Shown piece by piece: positions 24 through 64,000 of a DNA stretch of 64,000 nucleotides. Position 1 is the stretch's first letter. Each line of letters starts with the position of its first letter. The notes below the pieces were generated by a model that worked only from the letters and a program-made list of their open reading frames with translations, was not told the origin of the DNA and searched no databases. The stretch is from Lentzea tibetensis (lineage in GTDB: Bacteria > Actinomycetota > Actinomycetes > Mycobacteriales > Pseudonocardiaceae), in the NCBI RefSeq assembly GCF_007845675.1, contig NZ_VOBR01000005.1, positions 380,163 to 444,162 of the forward strand, read 5' to 3'. The translations under genes and the position numbers were made by a program.

Positions 24-1013
24 GTGAAAGCGGCCGTCATCAGCGCACCCGACGTGGTCGAGGTGACCACTGTGGACGATCCGGCGCCCGGCAGGCGCGA
101 GGTCGTCGTGGACGTCGCCGCGTGCGGGCTGTGCGGAACGGACCTGCACATCCTGCAGGGCGAGTTCGCGCCGACGCTGCCGGTCGTGCCGGGGCACGAG
201 TTCGCGGGCGTGGTCGCCGAGGTCGGAACGGAGGTCACCGAGCTGCGCGTCGGCGACCGGGTGGCCGTCGACCCGTCGCTGTACTGCTACGAGTGCCGGT
301 TCTGCCGGTCCGGGCGCAACAACCTGTGCGAGCGCTGGGCCGCGATCGGGGTGACGACGAGCGGCGGCGCGGCCGAGTTCGCGGTCGCGCCGGTCGCGAA
401 CTGCGTGAAGCTGCCGGACCACGTGCGGCTGGAGGACGCCGCGCTGATCGAGCCGCTGTCGTGCGCGGTGCGCGGGTACGACGTGCTGCGGTCGCAGCTC
501 GCGACCCGCGTGCTGATCTACGGGTCGGGCACGATGGGCCTGATGATGCTCCAGCTCGGCAAGCTGACCGGTGCGGCGTCGATCGAGGTGGTCGACGTGA
601 ACTCCGAACGGCTGGAGACCGCCCGTCTGCTCGGCGTCTCGGCGGCCGCGACGTCCGCCGACGAACTGGACCGGCCGGACGGCTGGGACGTCGTGATCGA
701 CGCGACCGGCAACGAGAAGGCGATCCAGGACGGGCTCGGCCGGGTCGCGCGCGGCGGAACGTTCCTGCAGTTCGGCGTCTCGGACTACTCGGCGCGGGCG
801 ACGATCGAGCCGTACAAGATCTACAACCAGGAGATCACGATCACCGGTTCGATGGCCGTGCTGCACTCGTTCGAACGCGCGTCTGACCTGTTCGCGAACG
901 GTGTGCTCGACGCGGAGGTGTTCATCAGCGACCGGCTGCCGCTCGACGAGTACGCCGCCGCGCTGGACGCGTTCAAGTCCGGGAAGGGGCGCAAGATCCA
1001 GGTGCTGCCGTAG
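24..1013 (+). CDS. Zinc-dependent alcohol/polyol dehydrogenase (MDR superfamily)
   Basis: NAD(P)-dependent medium-chain dehydrogenase, 329 aa, probably oxidising a secondary alcohol or polyol in the cytoplasm. The N-terminal GroES-like domain shows the catalytic zinc ligands (CGLCGTDLH near residue 34, then PGHEFAG) and a structural zinc lobe with four cysteines (CYECRFC...C near residues 89-103). The Rossmann domain has YGSGTMGLMM near residue 167. Length is typical of sorbitol/threonine-dehydrogenase-like members. The GTG at 24 is the first start; only 23 bases lie upstream, so promoter and operon partners are outside the window. Substrate cannot be told from sequence. The family is clear. 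Confidence 0.92.
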   Translation: MKAAVISAPDVVEVTTVDDPAPGRREVVVDVAACGLCGTDLHILQGEFAPTLPVVPGHEFAGVVAEVGTEVTELRVGDRVAVDPSLYCYECRFCRSGRNNLCERWAAIGVTTSGGAAEFAVAPVANCVKLPDHVRLEDAALIEPLSCAVRGYDVLRSQLATRVLIYGSGTMGLMMLQLGKLTGAASIEVVDVNSERLETARLLGVSAAATSADELDRPDGWDVVIDATGNEKAIQDGLGRVARGGTFLQFGVSDYSARATIEPYKIYNQEITITGSMAVLHSFERASDLFANGVLDAEVFISDRLPLDEYAAALDAFKSGKGRKIQVLP

Positions 1014-1094
1014 GACATCTCGTATCCAGGCCGCACGCACTCCCCTCTTGCCATACTGGACGCGCCGCCAGGCGCTCCGGGGGGAGGATCAACG

Positions 1095-1349
1095 ATGACG
1101 TTGGACGAGTTCCTGGACTCGGTTCAGGACTTACCGGACGACGAGTTGCTGGCCTGGTACGACGCGTTCGAGGGGCGGGCCACGGCGCCTGAGGCCGATG
1201 ACGCGGACTTCGATCACGAGCACGAGCCGTTGAAGTACTCGGTCGACGACCTGCGGGCGATACTGGTCAAGATCGCGGAGAACCGGGATGTGCACACCTC
1301 GAATCCCGGTTCTCCATGGCACAACCTGTGGCACTGGATGCGCCGGTAG
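1095..1349 (+). CDS. Small acidic protein of unknown function
   Basis: An 84-aa acidic protein beginning MTLDEFLDSVQDLPDDELLA, preceded by a good ribosome-binding site (GGGGGAGGATCAACG). It has no membrane segment and no recognised domain. The first half is rich in Asp and Glu, and the end is HNLWHWMRR. It lies directly before the histidine kinase: its stop TAG at 1347 overlaps an in-frame GTG of the kinase, which suggests translational coupling. A role as an accessory to the two-component system is inference from position only. Confidence 0.6.
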   Translation: MTLDEFLDSVQDLPDDELLAWYDAFEGRATAPEADDADFDHEHEPLKYSVDDLRAILVKIAENRDVHTSNPGSPWHNLWHWMRR

Positions 1350-3268
1350 TGGAGCCGGCCGCTCTGCGCGGGGAGATCGTCGCGGCGCGCGCGTTGGGCG
1401 TCGCGGTCGCGGCGTGCGTGCTGTTCGCCGCCGTGCACGCGACGATCGCGGGCACCATCGGGGTCTCACACCCCCGCAACTGGCTCGTCGCGATCGGCTG
1501 CACCCTGCTCGGCCTGCGCGTCGTCGCACACGTCCAGCGCAACTCGGTCGGCTGGATGCTGCTCGCGATGGGCGCGTTCGGCGCCGTCGCCGTGGCGGTG
1601 GCCGGCTGGCGCGACGTGCCCGCCGCCGCGTGGGTCGACGCCTGGGTGTGGTGGCCGACGTACGCGCTGCTGCCCGCCGTGGCACTCGTGTTCCCCACCG
1701 GGAGCCCCGTGTCGCGGCGGTGGCGCCCGGTGCTGGTCGCGAGCCTGGTCAGCATCCTGCTCGGCACCGTCGGGCTCGGCTGGGCGTCGTGGTCGTCGCC
1801 GGGGACGTTCTGGGACGACGCGGTGAGCGGTGAGCCGGTGCACGGTTTTCCCAAGCACATCACCATGATCGGTCTGGCCGGTGTGGTGCTCAGCCTGCTC
1901 GCCGCGGTGGTGGCGCTCGCGTTGCGCTGGCGTCGTTCGGCCGGTGACCAGCGGCGGCTGTTCGTGTGGGCGACGAGCCTGCTCGCGATCGCGGTGCTCG
2001 CGTTCCTGCTGGAGATCCCGTTCGGCGACTGGTCGTGGTTCGCGGGCGCCATCGCGTTCCCGGCGGCCGCGGTGATCGCCATCGTGCGCTACGGGCTGTA
2101 CGACATCAGCCTGATCATCCACCGCTCACTGCTGTACGGCACGCTGACGGTCGCGTTGCTCGCGCTGTACACGCTCGTCGCGCTCGCGGCGGGCTCGGTG
2201 TTCTCCGGCCAGGCGGCGGTGTTCGGCACGGCGGCCGCGGTGCTCGCGATCAACCCGTTGCGGCACACCGTGCAGCGCCGCCTCGACCGCTGGCTCTACG
2301 GCACCCGCGCGGATCCCTACGCCGCGCTGTCGACGCTGGGCGGGCGGCTCGAACACTCGCTGGCGCCCAACGAGGTGCTGCCCGCGGTGGCCGCGACGAT
2401 CGCCGAGTCGCTGAAGCTGCCGTACGTCGCGATCCGCGGGGGCGGTGCGCTCGCACTCGCCGAGCACGGCTCGTCGCACGGCTGGCCGCAGCTGCGGTTC
2501 CCGATGACCTACCGCGGCAAGACGATCGGCGACCTGGTCGTCGAACCGCGCGCGCCGGACGAGCGCCTGACCGACCGCGAGCTGAGCCTGCTCGCGGACC
2601 TGGCCCGCTCGACCGCGCCCGCCGCCCAGTCGCTGCGCCTGACCGCCGACCTCCAGCTGGCGCGCGAACGCCTGGTCCGCGCGCGGGAGGAGGAACGCCT
2701 GCGGCTGCGCAGGGACCTGCACGACGGCGTCGGCCCGAGCCTCGTCGGCATCCGCCTGCAGCTGCGCGCCGCGCGGCGCGCGTTGAGCCCGTCCGACGCC
2801 GAGGTGCTCGACGCCGTGCTCACCGACGTCGACACCACGGCCGCGGAGGTGCGCGCGCTCGTCGACGGCCTGCGCCCGCCGATCCTCGACCAGGGCCTGG
2901 TGCTGGCGTTGCGCCAGGAGGCGGCCCGGTTCACCGGTCCCGGCCTCTCCGTCGTCGTCGACGCCGACGAGCTGACCGGCCTGCCCGCCGCCGTCGAGGT
3001 GGCCGCGTACCGGATCGCCGCCGAGGCGCTGACCAACACGGCCCGCCACTCCGGCGCGGCGTCGTGCCGGATCACGGTGCGCCGCAACTCGAACCTGGAG
3101 CTGGAGATCGTCGACGACGGCAGCGGTGTCGCCGCGGACGCCACGCCCGGCGTCGGTCTCGGCTCGATGCGCGAACGGTGCGCGGAGCTGGGCGGCTCGT
3201 GCACCGTCGGTGCCGCGTCACCCCGCGGCACGCGCGTCGTAGCCCTGATTCCCCTGGAGGCCCAGTGA
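1349..3268 (+). CDS. Membrane sensor histidine kinase, NarL/DesK class
   Basis: Sensor kinase that autophosphorylates and passes phosphate to the response regulator encoded just downstream. The first ~300 residues hold about nine or ten hydrophobic segments. A GAF-like linker follows, then the HisKA_3 dimerisation helix with phospho-acceptor in LRRDLHDGVGPSL and a C-terminal HATPase with DDGSGV and GVGLGSMRERC. I favour GTG 1349, which shares TAGTG with the stop of the small gene before it; ATG 1316 is 11 codons upstream in frame and is the alternative. The kinase stop overlaps the regulator start (TGATG at 3266). The many-helix sensor suggests a membrane or hydrophobic stimulus, but the signal is unknown. 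Confidence 0.9.
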   Translation: MEPAALRGEIVAARALGVAVAACVLFAAVHATIAGTIGVSHPRNWLVAIGCTLLGLRVVAHVQRNSVGWMLLAMGAFGAVAVAVAGWRDVPAAAWVDAWVWWPTYALLPAVALVFPTGSPVSRRWRPVLVASLVSILLGTVGLGWASWSSPGTFWDDAVSGEPVHGFPKHITMIGLAGVVLSLLAAVVALALRWRRSAGDQRRLFVWATSLLAIAVLAFLLEIPFGDWSWFAGAIAFPAAAVIAIVRYGLYDISLIIHRSLLYGTLTVALLALYTLVALAAGSVFSGQAAVFGTAAAVLAINPLRHTVQRRLDRWLYGTRADPYAALSTLGGRLEHSLAPNEVLPAVAATIAESLKLPYVAIRGGGALALAEHGSSHGWPQLRFPMTYRGKTIGDLVVEPRAPDERLTDRELSLLADLARSTAPAAQSLRLTADLQLARERLVRAREEERLRLRRDLHDGVGPSLVGIRLQLRAARRALSPSDAEVLDAVLTDVDTTAAEVRALVDGLRPPILDQGLVLALRQEAARFTGPGLSVVVDADELTGLPAAVEVAAYRIAAEALTNTARHSGAASCRITVRRNSNLELEIVDDGSGVAADATPGVGLGSMRERCAELGGSCTVGAASPRGTRVVALIPLEAQ

Positions 3269-56429: not shown

Positions 56430-58484
56430 ATGTCCAGACGCTCGACGTCAGGTGCTGTTGTCGCAATTCTGTTGACGGCCTTGCTCACGCCGGGAGCGAA
56501 CGCACAGGCCGACGAACCCGTCGCCGACCCGATCCCGACCCCGACCGCATCCGGTCTGGGGCTCGAGATCGAGGAAGTCGCGACCCTTCCCCAGTCCACT
56601 GCGGTTCCGCCGCCGACGGACGTGCGGCTGAAGCAGTGGAACCGGATCAACTACTTCGGCGAGGTCCCCGACCGCTCCGGCCGCACGTACGTGCCGGACC
56701 TCAACGGCAGGATGTACCTGCTGGACCACGGCACGCAGCACGTCTACCTGGACGTCGGCGCCGCCGTCGGCGCGGACTTCCACACCTACCGCGGACTCGG
56801 CAGCGGGTTCGGCTTCGTCGCGTTCGACCCGAAGTTCGCCCGCAACGGTCGGTTCTACACCGTCCACACCGAGGCGGGGAACGCTCTCACCACCAAGAAG
56901 CCCGACCTGCCGTCCGCGCCGGACGCCCAGGTGCACGGTGTGATCACCGAGTGGACCGCGACCGACCCGAAGGCGAACACGTTCGCGGGCACCCGCCGCG
57001 AGATGCTGCGGATCGGGTTCGGCACGTTCATCCACGGCCTCCAGGAGATCGGCTTCAACCCGAACTCGAAGTGGTGGGACGACGACTACGGCCTGCTGTA
57101 CATCGCGGCGGGCGACGGCGGCGTCGGCCTGCGCACGACCGTCCCGCAGGACCTCGGCGTGCCGCAGGGCAAGATCCTGCGCATCGACCCGCGCGGGAAG
57201 AACGGCGTGAACGGCCACTACGGCATCCCGGCGAAGAACCCGTTCGTCGGCAAGCCCGGTGCGCTGGGCGAGATCTACGCCTACGGCCTGCGCGACCCGT
57301 ACCGCTTCAGCTGGGACGCGGGCGGGCGGCACCGGATGTTCCTCGGTCACATCGGCGAGAAGGTCGTCGAGTCCGTGTACGAGGTCAAGCCGGGCGCGAA
57401 CTTCGGCTGGAGCGAGCGGGAAGGCCGCTTCAACTACGTCAAGAACGATCCGAGCTGCCGCATCTTCCCGCTGCCCGCGGACGACGCCAAGTTCGGCTAC
57501 AGCTACCCCGTCGCCGGTTTCGACCACGACCGGCTGCCGACGTCACGTCCGTGCAGCGACAGCGGGAACGCGCTGATCGGCGGGTTCGTCTACCGCGGCC
57601 ACAAGATCCCCGAGCTGCGCGGCAAGTACATCTACGGCGAGGGCGTCAAGGGCTACGTCCTGTACGCCAACGAGCGCGAGATGAAGTCGGACTCGATGGC
57701 CGCGACGCACAGCCTGATGCTCTACGACAAGTCCGGCCAGCGCGTCACGTTGCAGCAGCTCGTCGGCAAGGAGCGCGTCGACCTGCGGTTCGGCCAGGAC
57801 AGCCGCGGCGAGCTCTACATACTCGCCAAGGCGAACGGCAAGATCTGGAAGGTCGTCGGCGCTCGCAAGTTCGCGGACTGCCGCACCGGGCACGACTTCG
57901 TCTGGGGCGCCACGAAGGCGCGCGACTGGCAGCCGGTCACGCCGGCGAAGTGGCAGTTCCCCGGCCGTGAGGTCGTGCTGGCCGAGGCGGGCGTGGCGCG
58001 ACCGGGCCCGCGCAGGCCGTTCGAGTACGCGGTGCTCTCCAAGGGACCGTCGTTCGGGTCCGTGCGGATCGACGCCGAGGTCAGGCTGGACACACCGGTC
58101 GAGGTGTCGAACCGCGACGTGATCATCGTGTTCGGCTACAAGTCCGACACCGAGTTCTACTACGCGCATCTGTCGTCGGACAACAAGATCTACCCGCACA
58201 ACGGGATCTTCGCGGTGAACAACGCGGACCGGGTGCGGCTCGACGACCAGTGGGACGAAGCGCGGTCGGTCGGTGCGCTGCCCGCGGTCAAGGACGCCGC
58301 GTGGCACCGGGTCTCGGTGAAGCACTGCGCGGGGACCGGTGAGATCGCGGTGTACGTGGACGGCTCGTCCGCGCCGCTGATGACGGCGGTGAACAAGACG
58401 TTCTCGTCCGGACGGGTCGGCTTCGGGTCGTTCGACAACATCGGCAGGATCCGGAACCTGCGCGTGCTCGGGGAGGGCGAGTGA
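56430..58484 (+). CDS. Secreted sugar dehydrogenase (glucose/sorbosone type), PQQ-like propeller
   Basis: 684-aa exported protein. Signal peptide 1-25 (ANA|QAD). Residues ~55-500 are a six-bladed propeller of the soluble glucose/sorbosone dehydrogenase family (HTYRGLGSGFGFVAFDPKFA, AAGDGGVGLRTTVPQDLGVP, GLRDPYRFSWDAGGRHRMFL). A C-terminal concanavalin-like domain (~520-684) may bind sugar. It oxidises sugars outside the cell if PQQ is available. ATG 56430 follows GAGGTGGTGGG. It overlaps the LamG gene by four bases. Confidence 0.85.
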   Translation: MSRRSTSGAVVAILLTALLTPGANAQADEPVADPIPTPTASGLGLEIEEVATLPQSTAVPPPTDVRLKQWNRINYFGEVPDRSGRTYVPDLNGRMYLLDHGTQHVYLDVGAAVGADFHTYRGLGSGFGFVAFDPKFARNGRFYTVHTEAGNALTTKKPDLPSAPDAQVHGVITEWTATDPKANTFAGTRREMLRIGFGTFIHGLQEIGFNPNSKWWDDDYGLLYIAAGDGGVGLRTTVPQDLGVPQGKILRIDPRGKNGVNGHYGIPAKNPFVGKPGALGEIYAYGLRDPYRFSWDAGGRHRMFLGHIGEKVVESVYEVKPGANFGWSEREGRFNYVKNDPSCRIFPLPADDAKFGYSYPVAGFDHDRLPTSRPCSDSGNALIGGFVYRGHKIPELRGKYIYGEGVKGYVLYANEREMKSDSMAATHSLMLYDKSGQRVTLQQLVGKERVDLRFGQDSRGELYILAKANGKIWKVVGARKFADCRTGHDFVWGATKARDWQPVTPAKWQFPGREVVLAEAGVARPGPRRPFEYAVLSKGPSFGSVRIDAEVRLDTPVEVSNRDVIIVFGYKSDTEFYYAHLSSDNKIYPHNGIFAVNNADRVRLDDQWDEARSVGALPAVKDAAWHRVSVKHCAGTGEIAVYVDGSSAPLMTAVNKTFSSGRVGFGSFDNIGRIRNLRVLGEGE

Positions 58485-59425
58485 GAAGGGTTCTGGCTGT
58501 TTCCTGCGCGCTGCTGTTGTGCTTCTCGCTGACCGCACCCGCGCAGGCGACACACCTGCCGATCGTGCTGCCGAGCCTGGCGCGCGACCTGGTGTCGTAC
58601 TACGACTTCGAGCACCCGCTGCCGGGCAACCCGGCGCTGGAACGCGATCGCGGTCGTTCCGGCACGCACCTGTCGTTGCTCAACGGCGGCAAGGACATGC
58701 GGGTGCGCGACCGGGCGTTCCCGGCGAGCCGGTCGGCGTTGCAGCTCAAGCAGGTCAACCCGACGGTCGCCGGTAACGACGACTGGAAGGCGGGCGTGTG
58801 GGCGCCGGTGCCCGGTGTGCCGACGTTGCACGCGTTCAACGGCGCGCGCGAAATGTCCATCATGGGCTGGTTCAAGATGACCGGCCAGAACCCGGCGCCG
58901 AACTCGAACTCGGCCAACCCGGACGACTTCTACGGCGCGATCGGGCTGGCCGGGCTGCTGTCCGGTGACTCGAACGGGCACGCGGTGCGCGGGTTGCTCG
59001 AGCTGATGAACGTCAACGGCAAGATGAGCCTGGTGGCGCTCGGCCGTCGCGTCGACGGTGCGGCGTCGCAGTACTTCACGGCCAACGCGGACTGGCAGAC
59101 GTTGTTGCCCGCCAACGAGTGGGTGTTCCTGGCGGCGACGTTCAACTTCGACACCGGGGCCATCGCCTTGTACCGCAACGGAAAGCCGGTCGATGGCTTC
59201 TACGCGGTGACCGGTGACCCGTGGGCGTTGGTGGGCGAGCCGGAGCCGGACCTGGCGTCGCCGACCGATCCGCTCGGCATCAAGATCGGCGGCAGCTACC
59301 CGCAGAACCACCGGGAGACCAACGCCTGCAACTGCCGGATGGACAGCCTGATGTTCCTCGACCGCGCGGTGTCCAAGTGGGAGGTGCACTTCCAGTACGA
59401 GTGGATGAGGCACCTGCCGGGCTGA
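58481..59425 (+). CDS. Secreted LamG/concanavalin-like protein
   Basis: 314-aa exported protein with signal peptide 1-23 (AQA|THL). The body is a jelly-roll lectin-like fold: LARDLVSYYDFEHPLPGNPA, MSIMGWFKMTGQNPAPN, WVFLAATFNFDTGAIALYRN and NACNCRMDSLMFLDRAV. It binds glycans or has a structural role. GTG 58481 overlaps the sugar dehydrogenase stop, so the two are a secreted pair under the LacI-like operator. Confidence 0.82.
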   Translation: MRRVLAVSCALLLCFSLTAPAQATHLPIVLPSLARDLVSYYDFEHPLPGNPALERDRGRSGTHLSLLNGGKDMRVRDRAFPASRSALQLKQVNPTVAGNDDWKAGVWAPVPGVPTLHAFNGAREMSIMGWFKMTGQNPAPNSNSANPDDFYGAIGLAGLLSGDSNGHAVRGLLELMNVNGKMSLVALGRRVDGAASQYFTANADWQTLLPANEWVFLAATFNFDTGAIALYRNGKPVDGFYAVTGDPWALVGEPEPDLASPTDPLGIKIGGSYPQNHRETNACNCRMDSLMFLDRAVSKWEVHFQYEWMRHLPG

Positions 59426-59443
59426 TCCCCTGTCGGTGAGTGG

Positions 59444-59464
59444 CCGGAGCTACTCCAGCTCCGG
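59444..59464. terminator. Bidirectional hairpin between convergent operons
   Basis: CCGGAGCT-ACTCC-AGCTCCGG, perfect 8-bp stem overlapping the minus-strand gene's stop at 59450 and 19 bases after the LamG-like stop. Confidence 0.65.
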
Positions 59465-61699
59465 TCGCTCGCCACCACCCTCGAGTGCCAGCGGCTCGTG
59501 GTGTTCGTTCTCCCAGTCGTTCCACCGGCGTTCGCGGCGTTCCCGCTCCTTCTCGATCCACTCGCGACCCTCGGCGGCGACGGACTCGAGTATCCGCAGC
59601 GCGCTCGTGACGCCCGAGTTCTCCAGCGCCAGCTCCGCCAGCTTCTTCTTGTCCTCGACGGCTTTGTCGACGAGTCCCTCGAAGTTCTCCATCACCACGG
59701 TGATCTCGTCGTCGTTGACGAGCCGGAGCCGGAAAGCCTTGCTGCGCACGTAGTTGTCCGTCTTGTCGGTGATCTCGACCCCGTCCTCGCCGAACACCAG
59801 CACCTGCCGTTCCTCGCCGGCGAACTTGATGCCGACCTCGAGCACCTGCGCCGACGCGAGCGAGCTGTAGCTGAAGGCGTTGCGGTACTCGTTGCGCAGC
59901 GCGCCGGTCTCGAAGTCCAGCTCGATCTCGACCTCGCGGACCCCGTTGTCGGTCAGCAGGAAGACCTTGACCGTGTAGGCCGAGTAGCGCGGCGCCCCGT
60001 GCAGCACCCTGGCGCGCTTGGCCGTCGAGGCTCCCTCGGTGAGCAGGACCTGGGCGATGATGTCCCGGTTGCTGAGTCCGCAGTGCTCGAGCGCCACCGT
60101 CTTGATGTGGGACTTGTCGAAATCCAGCCAGCGGGCGATCTCCGCGTCGGACGGGCGCTCGTCGAGCTCCGCGACGCACTCGTCGTAGGCGATCCGCTGC
60201 TCTTCGACCATGCGCTCGTTGTCGGCGCGTTCCTCCCGCAGGGCGAGGCGGTCGCCGAGGAGCTTGACGCCGTTGACGACGCCGACGCTCCCCGCCGCGA
60301 CCGTGCCCACGAGGACCAGGACGGCCAGGAAGGATGCGCCGGCCAGCTCGATGCCCAGCCCCACCGCGGTGGCGGCCGCGGCCAGTCCGCCGACCATGCC
60401 GAGCAGGTCGGCGGCCATCTCCGTCGGACCGACCTTGCGGAAGGCGTACAGGGACCTGTCGCCCCACTGCTTCGCGATGCGCTCGGCGTGCCACTGGACG
60501 AGCCAGCTCAGCTCGGTCGGCTGGATCTCCTTGCGCTGCCTGCGGCGGGCGCCCTCCTTGTCCCGCGCCTCGTTGATCTTGTCCGAGAAGGTGGAGTCGC
60601 CGAGGTCGGCGACCCGCACGGCGTAGGTGCGGATCAGCCGGTAGGCGAGGCCCCTCCCGATCTTCTCCAGCTCGTCGTCGATGCGCTCGTTGCCCAGCTC
60701 CTTGAGCGGGACGTCCTTCCACACCTTCCAGTCGGAGAACCGGTCGGCGATCAGCTGCTCGACGGCGTACCGGAACCCGCGCTTGCTGAACCGGTCGACG
60801 TCGAGCACGTGGTCGGGCCGTGCGGACTCCTGGCCGAGCTCGAACGCGTGCCGGGCGCGCCGCCGCGACGCGGCCACCGAGACGGCGCCGGCACCCCAGG
60901 CGACCAGTCCGCTCAGCAGCAGGCCGCCGAGCCACCACCCGGCCGCCTGGGTGAGCCACCCGCCGAGCAGCACCAGCCCGCCAGCGAACCCGGCGAGTCC
61001 GAACAGCGCCGCACCCCACGTGCTCGGCGTCATGTGGCCGTTGAAGTAGGGCGCGGGCACCTTCGGTTCGATCGGGTCGGCCTGGAAGAACTTCTTCGTC
61101 CGGTGACTGCGCTCGTCCGCGCTCCGGCCCTCCTCGACCAGGTCGGCGTTGATCCGGTCCAGCTGGTCCTGCACGGAACCGTTGAGCAACGTGGCCAGGT
61201 GCCGGGAGATCTCGATGCGCCGCTCCGTCGGGAGCGTCTGGAGCGTGTCGAGCACGGCGGCCGACCCGTTCCCGCCGTGCTCCTGGGCGAGCACGGACCT
61301 GACCAGCGCGACCACCACCGCCAGCGCGGTGTACCACTGGTCGTGCTCGTGCCTGCGCGCGATCTTCCACGCGAGGTCGAAGTTGTCGAACTCCGCGCGC
61401 CCCAGCTGGTTGAGCGATCGTTCGCTCAGCACCGCGAGCGCGTAGTAGTAAGCGATCTCGGTCGACTCCAGGCCGCCTCGCAGCACCTCGCCGATCATGT
61501 CCTCGGCCACCCTCGGCGAACCGCCCTCGAGGTGGTTGAGCGCGACGAGGTACCGGTTCTTCGGGGTGTCCTCCCCCGTGACCTGGTAGATCGTGTCGTG
61601 CTGGTGGAAGACCGCGTCACCGCTGACGACACCGATCTGGGCCTGCACCTTGGCGTTCCCGGAAGCTGTGTTGCGGTTCCCGCGCGACGGTTCGGTCAC
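59450..61699 (-). CDS. Large membrane protein with N-terminal amyloid-like signalling motif
   Basis: 749-aa protein of unknown family. Residues 14-31 are GNAKVQAQIGVVSGDAVF, almost the same motif as at the C-terminus of the upstream nucleosidase. Residues 50-200 are helical and TPR-like; two membrane hairpins lie at ~227-278 and ~430-480; a beta-rich part (570-670) and a charged coiled-coil tail (675-730) follow. No NACHT/NB-ARC P-loop is visible. Start GTG 61699 follows AGGGAGGGC; an ATG at 61777 would overlap the upstream gene. It lies 31 bp after the nucleosidase. It may be a membrane receptor or pore partner. Confidence 0.75.
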   Translation of the reverse strand: MTEPSRGNRNTASGNAKVQAQIGVVSGDAVFHQHDTIYQVTGEDTPKNRYLVALNHLEGGSPRVAEDMIGEVLRGGLESTEIAYYYALAVLSERSLNQLGRAEFDNFDLAWKIARRHEHDQWYTALAVVVALVRSVLAQEHGGNGSAAVLDTLQTLPTERRIEISRHLATLLNGSVQDQLDRINADLVEEGRSADERSHRTKKFFQADPIEPKVPAPYFNGHMTPSTWGAALFGLAGFAGGLVLLGGWLTQAAGWWLGGLLLSGLVAWGAGAVSVAASRRRARHAFELGQESARPDHVLDVDRFSKRGFRYAVEQLIADRFSDWKVWKDVPLKELGNERIDDELEKIGRGLAYRLIRTYAVRVADLGDSTFSDKINEARDKEGARRRQRKEIQPTELSWLVQWHAERIAKQWGDRSLYAFRKVGPTEMAADLLGMVGGLAAAATAVGLGIELAGASFLAVLVLVGTVAAGSVGVVNGVKLLGDRLALREERADNERMVEEQRIAYDECVAELDERPSDAEIARWLDFDKSHIKTVALEHCGLSNRDIIAQVLLTEGASTAKRARVLHGAPRYSAYTVKVFLLTDNGVREVEIELDFETGALRNEYRNAFSYSSLASAQVLEVGIKFAGEERQVLVFGEDGVEITDKTDNYVRSKAFRLRLVNDDEITVVMENFEGLVDKAVEDKKKLAELALENSGVTSALRILESVAAEGREWIEKERERRERRWNDWENEHHEPLALEGGGERPELE

Positions 61700-61730
61700 C
61701 ACGCCCTCCCTCGCGTTCTCGTTGCTGCGC

Positions 61731-62546
61731 TCAGTTCCCCGCGTCCGAGCCGAACTGGACGTTGCCGTTGACGACACCGGCCTGCATGACGACGCGGGCG
61801 TTGCCGGTGGCGATGTTCTCGACCCGCGGCGCGCGGCTCGAGCCGCCGCCGGTGTCCTCCAGCTCGGCGATGACGGCCGCGGCGAAGTCCGCCGCGGTGC
61901 GGGCCGCCTTCACCTGCGATCCGGCGCGGTCGGCGATCTCCTTGGCGCCGTCGGCGTGGTCGCTGATGGCGCGGATGGTCGCGGTCGGCGCGAGGTTGAG
62001 GTGGCCTGCGTGCGCGACGCCCGCGCTCTCCATCTCGATCGCGACCGCGTCGTTGTAGTGCCTGCGCAGCTGGTTCGCGAGCGGCGAGTCCTTGGCGTTG
62101 AGCACGACCTCGCCCGCCGCGATCGGGCTGAAGTGCACGGACGGCCACTCCCCCGTCCTCGCCACGTGCCTGGCGATCTGCTCGACGTGGTGCGGCGCCT
62201 CGAAGGACCGCGGCCGGGCGCTGAACCCGTCCGTGCCGACGTGGCCGCCGTGGTAGGCGTAGACCTTGGTGGCGAAGACGACGTCACCGAGCTCCAGCGA
62301 CTCGCGCAGGCCGCCCGCGACCCCGACGAACAGCACGAGCCCCGGCCCGAACTCGGCGATCGCGCGTTCGGTGATGGTCGCGGCCACGTGGTTGCCCTTG
62401 CCGACGATCGCGAGCGCCACCCGCCTGCCGGCGATGGTGCCCACCTCGAACAGAGTCCCGGCGGGGTGCCGGTGCGTGCGGATGTCCGCCATGTGCGCTC
62501 GGACGGCGGCGTACTCCACTTCGAGCGCGGTGAGTATCACGACCAT
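61731..62546 (-). CDS. PNP/MTAN-fold nucleosidase with C-terminal amyloid-like motif
   Basis: 271-aa protein of the nucleoside phosphorylase/nucleosidase family. It shows VLFVGVAGGLRESLELGDVV, the ribose-binding AIEMESAGVAHA (residues 169-180) and the catalytic Asp196 in RAISDHADGAK. It would cleave an N-glycosidic bond of a nucleoside. After a short linker it ends with GNARVVMQAGVVNGNVQF (residues 248-265), a motif shared with the next gene's product. PNP_UDP domains are known effectors of NLR-like systems. The salvage role is less likely given this tail. Confidence 0.85.
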   Translation of the reverse strand: MVVILTALEVEYAAVRAHMADIRTHRHPAGTLFEVGTIAGRRVALAIVGKGNHVAATITERAIAEFGPGLVLFVGVAGGLRESLELGDVVFATKVYAYHGGHVGTDGFSARPRSFEAPHHVEQIARHVARTGEWPSVHFSPIAAGEVVLNAKDSPLANQLRRHYNDAVAIEMESAGVAHAGHLNLAPTATIRAISDHADGAKEIADRAGSQVKAARTAADFAAAVIAELEDTGGGSSRAPRVENIATGNARVVMQAGVVNGNVQFGSDAGN

Positions 62547-62563
62547 GCGGAGAAGCTAGCTTA

Positions 62564-62578
62564 TTGTCGAGATGACAA
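62564..62578. promoter_or_regulatory. TTGTC-N5-GACAA operator, site 1
   Basis: Perfect inverted repeat 18 bp before the nucleosidase ATG, with spacer ending AT. It matches two other sites (62616, 63331) in the form TGTCnnnATGACA. Confidence 0.72.
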
Positions 62579-62615
62579 CAACCGATCCATAGCCAAACTC
62601 TATGAATCAAGCCAA

Positions 62616-62630
62616 ATGTCGTAATGACAC
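62616..62630. promoter_or_regulatory. ATGTC-N5-GACAC operator, site 2
   Basis: TGTC-GTAAT-GACA, 70 bp upstream of the nucleosidase, abutting the NrtR-like gene's stop. It has the same spacing as sites 1 and 3. Confidence 0.7.
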
Positions 62631-63322
62631 TAACGGGGGCGCGACATCGGCGGCACCAGCGACTCGGCCTTCCCCGCGCGGTAGAGAGCGGCGGGCCTGC
62701 CGTTGCCCGACGAGCGCTTTCCGCCGGTGGGCTCGATGAACCCGTCCGCGTCCGTGACCTTGCGGTGGAAGTTCGGCTTGTCCAGCGCGATGCCCCACAC
62801 GGCCTGGTAGACCTCGCGCAGCTCGCCGATGGTGAACTCGGGACCGCAGAACGCCGTGGCCACCGTCGTGTGCTGCAGCTTGTCCCGCGCCTGCTCGACG
62901 GCGTCCCGCAGGATCTCGTCGTGGTCGAACGCCAGGCCGACGGCGTCCTCGACGGGCACCCACCGGGCCGCCCGCGCGTCGCCGCCCGCGGTCGGCACCG
63001 GCAGATCGGGCGCGATGGCGAGGTAGGCGCAGGTGATCACCCGCGGGTCGCGGGGGTCGCGGTCCGGCGCCGAGTACACGCCGACCTGCTCGAGGTGCAG
63101 TGCGCCGGGGTCCACGCCGGTCTCCTCGACGAGCTCCCGCGCCGCTGTTTCGTCCAGCGACTCACTCCCGCGCATGAACCCGCCGGGAAGGGCCGCGCTG
63201 CCCCGGAACGGCTCGTTCGCGCGCTCGACGAGCAGCACGTGCAGCTCCCCCGACCTGATCGTGAGGATCACCAGGTCGGCGGTGACGGTGACGCGGAGAT
63301 GACGACTGGCCACGCGTTCCAC
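62630..63322 (-). CDS. NrtR-like Nudix/winged-helix transcriptional regulator
   Basis: 230-aa protein. Residues ~10-140 form a Nudix domain with the complete box GFMRGSESLDETAARELVEE (residues ~48-67). Residues ~150-220 form a winged helix (FTIGELREVYQAVWGIALDK, NFHRKVTDADGFIEPTGGKR), the NrtR layout. NrtR repressors sense ADP-ribose or related nucleotides. Three matching palindromes flank it and the nucleosidase operon, so it probably controls both. GTG 63322 is the start, with site 3 just upstream. The intact Nudix box leaves open residual hydrolase activity. Confidence 0.88.
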   Translation of the reverse strand: MERVASRHLRVTVTADLVILTIRSGELHVLLVERANEPFRGSAALPGGFMRGSESLDETAARELVEETGVDPGALHLEQVGVYSAPDRDPRDPRVITCAYLAIAPDLPVPTAGGDARAARWVPVEDAVGLAFDHDEILRDAVEQARDKLQHTTVATAFCGPEFTIGELREVYQAVWGIALDKPNFHRKVTDADGFIEPTGGKRSSGNGRPAALYRAGKAESLVPPMSRPR

Positions 63323-63330
63323 CCTACTTC

Positions 63331-63345
63331 ATGTCACGATGACAT
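63331..63345. promoter_or_regulatory. ATGTC-N5-GACAT operator, site 3
   Basis: Perfect inverted repeat 9-23 bp before the NrtR-like start, spacer ACGAT. It would block the promoter or ribosome-binding site (autoregulation). Confidence 0.72.
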
Positions 63346-63626
63346 CAAGCAGGGTCCACAGTGGATCCGAGATGGCGGACGACCGCCATCACCCGCCTGC
63401 TGACGCCGGTCGACCCGGCGAGCCCGAGCTTGTCGAAGATCGCGTTGATGTGCTTCTCGGCGGCGCTCAGCGAGATGTGCAGGTCCTCGGAGATGCGGGC
63501 GTTCGTGAGCCCCTGCGCCATCAGGGCGAGCACGTCCTTCTCCCTCGGGGTCAGCCGTTCCAGCGGTGAGCGGTTCAGCAGCCTCCGCACGACCTCGGGG
63601 TCGAACGCGGCACCGCCCTTCGCCAC
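63345..63626 (-). CDS. C-terminal remnant of a NarL-type response regulator
   Basis: 93-aa frame with a complete LuxR helix-turn-helix (LTPREKDVLALMAQGLTNAR, SAAEKHINAIFDKLGLAGST) and the linker AKGGAAFDPEVVRRLLNRS. Upstream in frame the text QFLDALDRV still matches the end of a receiver domain, then it runs into an array of 12-residue repeats instead of the rest of the receiver. The frame is open to the window edge with no clear start. This is either a receiver truncated by the repeat or a partial gene. Confidence 0.6.
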   Translation of the reverse strand: MAKGGAAFDPEVVRRLLNRSPLERLTPREKDVLALMAQGLTNARISEDLHISLSAAEKHINAIFDKLGLAGSTGVSRRVMAVVRHLGSTVDPA

Positions 63627-63670
63627 CCGGTCCAGTGCGTCGAGGAACTGCCCGTTGGGGCTTGGCCTCT

Positions 63671-63838
63671 GCCGGTTTTCATCGGGGCTCGGGTCTTTGC
63701 CTGGCTGCCGGTTGTCGTCGGGGCTCGGGTCTTTGCCTGGCTGCCGGTTGTCGTCGGGGCTGGGTTCTTTGCCTGGCCGCCGGTTTCGCCGGGGCTGGGT
63801 TCTTTGCCTGGCCGCCGGTTTCGCCGGGGCTGGGGTCT
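63671..63838. repeat. Tandem array of 36-bp (and 35-bp) units
   Basis: Units at 63671, 63707, 63743 (36 bp), 63779 (35 bp) and a partial one at 63814. On the minus strand the 36-bp units are in frame with the response-regulator remnant and read DPSPDDNRQPGK-like. They share an AACCGGCAG core with the dispersed repeat at 16.1 and 40.6 kb. Confidence 0.85.
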
Positions 63839-64000
63839 GATGGTTGCTGCGGCTTTGGTGTTTCGGTGTCGGTGGTTGGGTCGCGCCTTCGGCGCAGCGA
63901 TTGGGCCTTGACAGTGAGGATGTGTGTGGTGGTCCTTGCTGGGTGGGTCTGACTCGTGGCTTGACTGACCTGGTGTCTTTCCCAAGATCTGTCGTCCGGC
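63839..64000. other. Window edge, no gene identified
   Basis: The minus-strand frame of the remnant stays open here, but I see no receiver-domain motifs (no DD pair, no phospho-acceptor Asp context). The sequence is low in typical codon bias. Confidence 0.4.

Follow-up and report, generated by a model that had tools for sequence, protein, structure and literature searches.

A nucleosidase and a membrane hub sharing a terminal motif: a candidate NLR-free amyloid signalling module in Lentzea tibetensis and other actinobacteria

Within a 64,000-nt stretch of the Lentzea tibetensis genome (the window, whose coordinates are used throughout), three minus-strand genes encode a Nudix/NrtR-like regulator (62630–63322), a protein of the PNP/MTAN fold (61731–62546) and a membrane protein, here termed the hub (59450–61699). 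The nucleosidase C-terminus and the hub N-terminus carry a common short motif, and we lean towards a reading in which the genes at 59450–63322 form a signalling module that works without an NLR, through a RHIM/BASS3-like amyloid, and whose outputs can be exchanged. Judged from the sequence comparisons below, motif-driven recruitment of the partner by the hub is very likely; an amyloid state of the motif pair is, by analogy with described systems, distinctly probable, and a lethal or defensive output is slightly favoured.

Residues 248–265 of the nucleosidase (GNARVVMQAGVVNGNVQF) and residues 14–31 of the hub (GNAKVQAQIGVVSGDAVF, numbered from the GTG at 61699) are identical at 10 of 18 positions, and both the coordinates and the residues given in the original prediction, made from the letters of this DNA, are correct. 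Over the extended stretch, comprising nucleosidase residues 244–265 (NIATGNARVVMQAGVVNGNVQF, 61752–61817, minus strand) and hub residues 10–31 (NTASGNAKVQAQIGVVSGDAVF, 61607–61672, minus strand), the identity amounts to 12 of 22. In a single BLASTP comparison of the two proteins this motif was the top match (E 0.001), followed by a match of E 0.40, and none of 100 shuffled hub N-termini reached the score of the window pair. Moreover, a motif model from which the window sequences had been left out recovered both copies from the 9.36 Mb genome of the host (E 6.8e-9 and 6.4e-8), the next match (E 3.3e-4) lying inside an unrelated lipoprotein-like open reading frame (ORF). As BLASTP, the shuffles and the own-genome search agree, a chance resemblance of the two motifs was ruled out. 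The internal stretch of this lipoprotein-like ORF (L176; L numbers designate loci), DNAQVDAQVGVVSG, is probably a chance match.

To place the pair in other genomes, contigs were scanned for the pattern; the hub protein as a single query returned no relatives, and an alignment query returned 141, from which 80 loci were kept, all actinobacterial by title (the 80-locus set). A PNP gene lies upstream of the hub in 68 of these, another partner in 11, and none was seen in one (L167). In the taxonomic family of the host, a hub homologue was found in 70 of 249 genomes, including the window's own, and of the 60 loci in the resulting family set, which overlaps the 80-locus set (17 of 63 hub proteins repeated), 56 have a same-strand PNP homologue immediately upstream of the hub. 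Of the exceptions, L050 has a small motif protein in place of the PNP, no motif partner is seen in L056 and L057, and L064 is one half of a split system. The original prediction had proposed following the pair and its motif into other genomes: the genes are indeed neighbours elsewhere, and the motif is kept at the PNP and hub termini of relatives. Phylum-wide, at least 2 of 296 genomes contain the system, one being the window's own, a weak estimate drawn from the best three candidates per genome. On the Streptomyces sp. M54 plasmid NZ_CP059899, the NUDIX, nucleosidase and hub genes are consecutive.

A control within the genus separates nucleosidases with and without the motif. Searched with a PNP profile, 25 genomes yielded 28 matches, 20 of which had loci that were examined with 1.5 kb flanks; the other eight had none. 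All 11 motif-bearing PNPs (window included) have a hub downstream and a NUDIX homologue, and none of the nine PNPs without the motif has either. In 73 of 79 pairs, the partner stop and hub start share a 4-bp overlap, a count to be read with the script's preference for such overlaps where a start codon was present; the window pair has no overlap start. Irregular loci were also encountered. The matched hub C-terminal stretches of L056 and L057 each contain one in-frame TGA; in the genome of L064 and L065, the hub N-terminal part and the PNP (the L065 half) lie ~18 kb from the hub C-terminal part, as if split by an insertion; L063 is a degraded remnant in which the PNP is reduced to a short piece and the hub C-terminus to fragments in differing frames; and L102, L111, L126, L045, L049 and L052 have a second hub gene copy in tandem behind the first.

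The motif was then described by a 20-column matrix trained on the 80 pairs and used with a threshold of 6 bits. On both partners it starts with N-x-A, followed by V-G-x-Q-x-G and later by another G, with Q varying least apart from V and G. In the training data (79 pairs), 78 partners and 75 hubs exceed the threshold, both sides doing so in 74 pairs, and among held-out loci, with the window excluded, 42 of 46 hubs and 39 of 40 PNPs exceed it, the sole failing PNP being a second, unpaired paralogue in L038. The background above 6 bits amounts to 30 of 2300 and 65 of 2000 shuffles, 6 of 268 other hub stretches and 2 of 40 PNP catalytic parts. In 75 of the 80 pairs, the pair score is reached by no more than 5 of 100 shuffles.

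The paired motifs covary beyond the phylogeny of the membrane protein, in statistics that control phylogenetic non-independence in part. Own pairs have a mean alignment score of 56, compared with 40 when every partner is paired with every hub, a difference reached in 0 of 10000 permutations (phylogeny ignored), and a partial Mantel comparison of partner-motif and hub-motif distances, controlling for hub-body distance and keeping 75 of the 80 pairs, gave r 0.45 (0 of 2000). Compared with the three nearest hubs of less than 70% body identity, own pairs have a motif identity of 0.49 vs 0.45, a small difference (Wilcoxon p 0.001). In addition, odd residues are mirrored on the two sides, as in QGIVHG/QGIVYG (L099), QQNG/QQNA (L095, L150), GIVARDV/GIVADSV (L135) and GFQA/GFQA (L171).

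The hub is combined with different partners. In the 11 non-PNP loci, the partner is a TIR protein (L099, L137), a BTAD/SARP protein (L101, L106, L107, L112) or a small protein lacking known domains (L103, L116, L141, L151), and the L109 partner, which has no Pfam match of its own, resembles BTAD C-termini by reading. The motif exceeds 6 bits in all of these partners except that of L112 (10 of 11); the pairing is weak in L106 and L107 (1 of 100 shuffles reaches the score) and barely present in L112 (6 of 100). A constant hub with varying partners fits a hub with exchangeable effectors. Behind the motif, 58 of 80 partners have a tail of at least 60 residues. That of the L116 partner consists of four predicted helices, mostly with a predicted local distance difference test score (pLDDT) above 90, and it aligns with the tails of PNP, TIR, BTAD and small partners, so that motif and tail behave like a cassette. 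This four-helix tail has no Foldseek match at E≤0.001, and its relatives have weak Pfam matches alone, the best (7.6e-4) to DUF5955 and NMB0537_N. Six genes upstream of non-PNP partners were scanned, of which three encode helix-turn-helix regulators (L099, L137, L101) and three do not (L116, L141, L151).

Further proteins of the same genus carry motif-like sequences. At L207:1375-3066 (+), a NACHT-type protein (PF24883 E 4e-7; NACHT 2e-5, just below the cut-off) has GSAAVVLQAGVVYGDVH ahead of its NTPase (motif E 1.3e-4), and motifs of one kind thus appear to be used both by an NLR in that genome and by a non-NLR hub in the window. L200:412-1704 (+) encodes several motif-like copies, two passing the model and further ones found by reading, followed by a Prim-Pol gene (PF09250). 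In the L204 minus-strand frame 595-1587 (reversed coordinates), one copy passes the model, again with further ones by reading, and the gene adjoins an apparent cytosine methyltransferase gene (by reading). Both multi-motif proteins may be located on mobile elements and may be decoys or triggers of the hub.

The hub, 749 aa from the GTG at 61699, is preceded by a ribosome-site-like GGGAGGG run; the longest ORF starts at 61777. Searches of Pfam, NCBIfam and PADLOC with the hub gave nothing at E≤1. Its AlphaFold2 model (42 sequences; pLDDT 84, predicted template modelling score 0.82) begins with a disordered N-terminus, followed by a helical TPR-like region (residues 46–204; 61088–61564), a first membrane hairpin (residues 225–287; 60839–61027) with hydrophobic 19-mers at 231–249 and 259–277 in two long helices, a helical stretch, a second hairpin (residues 425–512; 60164–60427) with 19-mers at 432–450 and 457–475, likewise in long helices, a C-terminal beta-rich domain (residues 549–670; 59690–60055) with modelled strands and many invariant or near-invariant alignment positions, and a terminal helical part (684–734), all encoded on the minus strand. 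The motif lies in a stretch modelled mostly as disordered, with pLDDT below 50 at residues 1–13 and 15–27, and the motif stretch of the L116 partner is likewise mostly disordered. Of 143 hub sequences, 17 being repeats, 8 show a Walker A pattern. A P-loop is therefore not conserved, and the hub was rejected as an NLR with a NACHT or NB-ARC NTPase. The partner with membrane hairpins and without a P-loop ATPase described in the original prediction is therefore what we find, with two hairpins and four hydrophobic segments. The whole hub has no Foldseek match in the PDB at E≤0.001; VIA-align returned TPR-like matches at ~36–185 and helical (TTYH) matches at 208–513, which are too common to name a family, and barely covered the other parts.

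The nucleosidase (271 aa; PF01048 E 5.2e-32), the likely effector, matches solved MTAN structures with a best E of 2.2e-20. E11, E173 and D196, which we take to be the counterparts of the catalytic residues of E. coli MTAN on the alignment of related structures, are invariant in 31 of 31 aligned sequences. It falls below the curated NCBIfam cut-offs for MTA/SAH nucleosidases (101.2 vs 169 bits for the best model; 65.1 vs 73.8 for TIGR01704). Some PNP effectors are ATP nucleosidases. In PADLOC, the protein matches the effector model PN-superfamily; together with the fungal PNP–NLR amyloid pairs (PMC9815663), this agrees with the earlier statement that PNP domains are known effectors.

The third gene encodes a Nudix and winged-helix protein (PF00293 E 1.6e-20; PF21906 NrtR_WHD E 1.3e-16). 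A Nudix homologue (tblastn E≤1e-5) is present in all 68 PNP loci of the 80-locus set, upstream on the same strand in 62, and in none of the 12 others. Within L033–L093 it occurs in 54 of 61 loci and is missing from L063, L070 and L081, which contain PNP sequence, and from L050, L056, L057 and L064. By this distribution, the Nudix gene follows the nucleosidase and not the hub. The NrtR winged helix was found in 9 of 11 Nudix proteins scanned (window included); the remaining two, short proteins from L105 and from L096, where a long copy is also present, consist of the Nudix domain alone. By reading, the window copy has a full Nudix box; a strict box occurs in only 20 of 83 copies, and many may therefore sense nucleotides rather than hydrolyse them. 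Against the ADPR-responsive repressor model NF050029, the window regulator scores 118.2 bits (curated cut-off 400).

Operator-like sites accompany the regulator. A palindrome of the long form, with a TGTC-N5-GACA core, lies between the regulator and nucleosidase genes (62560–62582), another (CTTCATGTCACGATGACATCAAG) immediately upstream of the regulator gene (63327–63349), and a second site between the two genes, with core matches and weaker arms, at 62612–62634 (TGTCGTAATGACA at 62617–62629). In the host genome the long form occurs at 62560 and 63327 only. A palindrome with this core lies within 300 bp of the Nudix or PNP start in 61 of 68 PNP loci (the others being L098, L105, L110, L113, L130, L159 and L162), at a density of 0.82 per kb within the start zones vs 0.008 outside. 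The Nudix/NrtR-type gene and its operator-like sites thus belong to the unit, an addition to the earlier account, and the two-component system originally proposed gives way to one in which, moreover, the enzyme is one of several exchangeable partners.

In Mycobacterium smegmatis, NrtR is an auto-repressor that is released by ADP-ribose and controls NAD synthesis genes (PMC6800001). The window regulator resembles it in combining Nudix and DNA-binding helix domains and in the 23-bp palindrome before its own gene, and differs in the operator (GTTTTCGA-N7-TCGAAAAC there, CTTNNTGTC-N5-GACANNAAG here) and in the target, NAD synthesis there and the nucleosidase–hub pair here. Since the mycobacterial protein is an auto-repressor, the operon would presumably be repressed by the Nudix/NrtR-like protein here as well.

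The closest comparison is with the BASS-motif amyloid signalosomes of bacterial NLRs (Dyrka 2020), as described in PMC7889193, PMC8086366 and PMC7885112. BASS3 is termed RHIM-like in these papers, and the RHIM core is quoted as G-(I,V)-Q-(I,V)-G (PMC7885112). Similar are the short motif common to adjacent genes, the order of motifs, with the effector C-terminus and the receptor N-terminus as in published NLR pairs (PMC7889193), the occurrence in filamentous bacteria, and the TIR domain, which is among the effectors listed there and a partner in some loci here. In contrast, the present receptor is a membrane protein with TPR-like features in which no NTPase is recognised, the effector is a PNP, BTAD or small helical protein where Bell is found there, and the unit includes a Nudix regulator gene and operator-like sites. 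Fungal PNP_UDP/NLR pairs with the PUASM motif (PMC9815663) likewise encode, beside a receptor, a PNP with a C-terminal motif, which is amyloid there; their receptors are NACHT NLRs and their motif is FxGxGxQxxGxGxF, a pattern absent, by reading, from the window motifs. EACC1 (PMC7159879) likewise consists of two genes in actinobacteria, one for a membrane component that stays constant and one for an effector that varies. It has one membrane helix, compared with four hydrophobic segments here, and its next gene is often caspase-like, unlike the PNP, TIR, BTAD or small-protein partners of the hub; the available part of its description mentions no shared amyloid-like motif.

These results suggest a model in which the hub would sense a trigger and cluster, exposing its disordered N-terminal RHIM/BASS3-like motif. 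This motif would recruit, and probably template into a cross-beta assembly, the matching C-terminal motif of the nucleosidase, which, clustered and activated by proximity, would cleave its putative substrate, the adenine nucleotide pool, and the loss of nucleotides would lead to dormancy or death of the cell. The Nudix/NrtR-like protein would act on the operon via the palindromic operators, and an ADP-ribose-like nucleotide may release it. In other species, the same hub would drive a TIR protein, a SARP/BTAD regulator or a small helical protein. On the grounds of the published motif order and the constancy of the hub, signalling would run from hub to partner.

Several observations weigh against such a module. 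The strict RHIM core is rare (2 of 79 partners, 4 of 79 hubs), the window motif pair lacks its first G, and our motif matrix gives a published BASS3 peptide -10.4 bits and an archaeal BASS3-like peptide 1.4 bits. A relaxed core occurs in 53 partners and 19 hubs (of 79 each) vs 0.7 and 0.4 expected from shuffles, and the BASS/RHIM-like resemblance noted originally accordingly stands as a loose likeness to the RHIM/PP core and fails for the strict one. Five of the 80 pairs (L112, L113, L149, L156, L158) are not clearly above shuffles; the L056 and L057 hubs have no recognisable motif partner within 12–13 kb; and the BTAD partners point to a transcriptional, not lethal, output in some species. 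One pattern scan each of viral contigs and phage records returned no relative, and a phage or viral origin was discarded. In a comparison of defence genes around the loci, 98 neighbouring ORFs (a random draw of 176) hit 55 PADLOC models vs 20 for 98 control ORFs taken from other places in 20 family genomes, a count of models and not of matching proteins; many of the 55 are methyltransferase or helicase types matched by single proteins, with two Lamassu-type and two CARF models among them, and the control ORFs include Cas12f-like and Csx1 matches.

The rarity of the strict core also favours an alternative in which the motif is a specific docking peptide forming a small soluble beta heterodimer or oligomer, so that the hub would still recruit the enzyme and nothing would propagate. 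The pairing evidence (BLASTP, shuffles, covariation and genus control) fits this equally well, and we nevertheless regard it as rather unlikely, as models show the motif-bearing stretches as largely disordered, Q is its most constant residue beside V and G, and the layout copies published amyloid pairs (PMC7889193, PMC9815663). Signalling could also run in reverse, the nucleosidase or its product sensing infection and the membrane protein acting as an executioner that opens the membrane via its two hairpins, with the regulator beside the nucleosidase reading the same nucleotide. This appears improbable, given that the membrane protein is constant while TIR, BTAD and small proteins replace the nucleosidase, and that the hub motif stands at the end where published receptors carry it (PMC7889193). 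An ordinary purine salvage operon, consisting of a methylthioadenosine-type nucleosidase, a membrane protein and an NAD-linked regulator, with the motif as an assembly tag for metabolic channelling, would account for the PF01048 and MTAN matches and for the control of NAD synthesis genes by NrtR in M. smegmatis (PMC6800001). It is very improbable in view of the score of 101.2 vs 169 bits for the best curated model, the patchy distribution (hub homologues in 70 of 249 genomes of the family), the replacement of the nucleosidase by TIR or BTAD proteins, and the presence of the system on a Streptomyces plasmid.

PMC7889193 poses the question of whether signalling amyloids act in NLR-independent pathways of fungi and bacteria. 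For such signalling, the locus offers a concrete candidate that recurs and lends itself to direct testing; nature provides exchanged outputs and a set of motif pairs that covary. More tentatively, the hub may be prion-like, an NLR-free membrane TPR receptor that templates interchangeable outputs, among them nucleosidase and TIR enzymes and a transcription factor, with pair-specific motif codes separating the systems and with a Nudix regulator that arms it on reading nucleotide breakdown; if true, bacterial amyloid signalling would control gene expression as well as death. The titles and abstract openings of the literature searched, a scope that leaves out most subscription journals and the founding BASS paper, contained no description of the PNP–hub pair.

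Rfam gave no matches in 58000–64000. Outside the system and convergent with the hub gene, 58481–59425 (+) encodes a secreted-looking protein with a weak Laminin_G_3 match below the cut-off.

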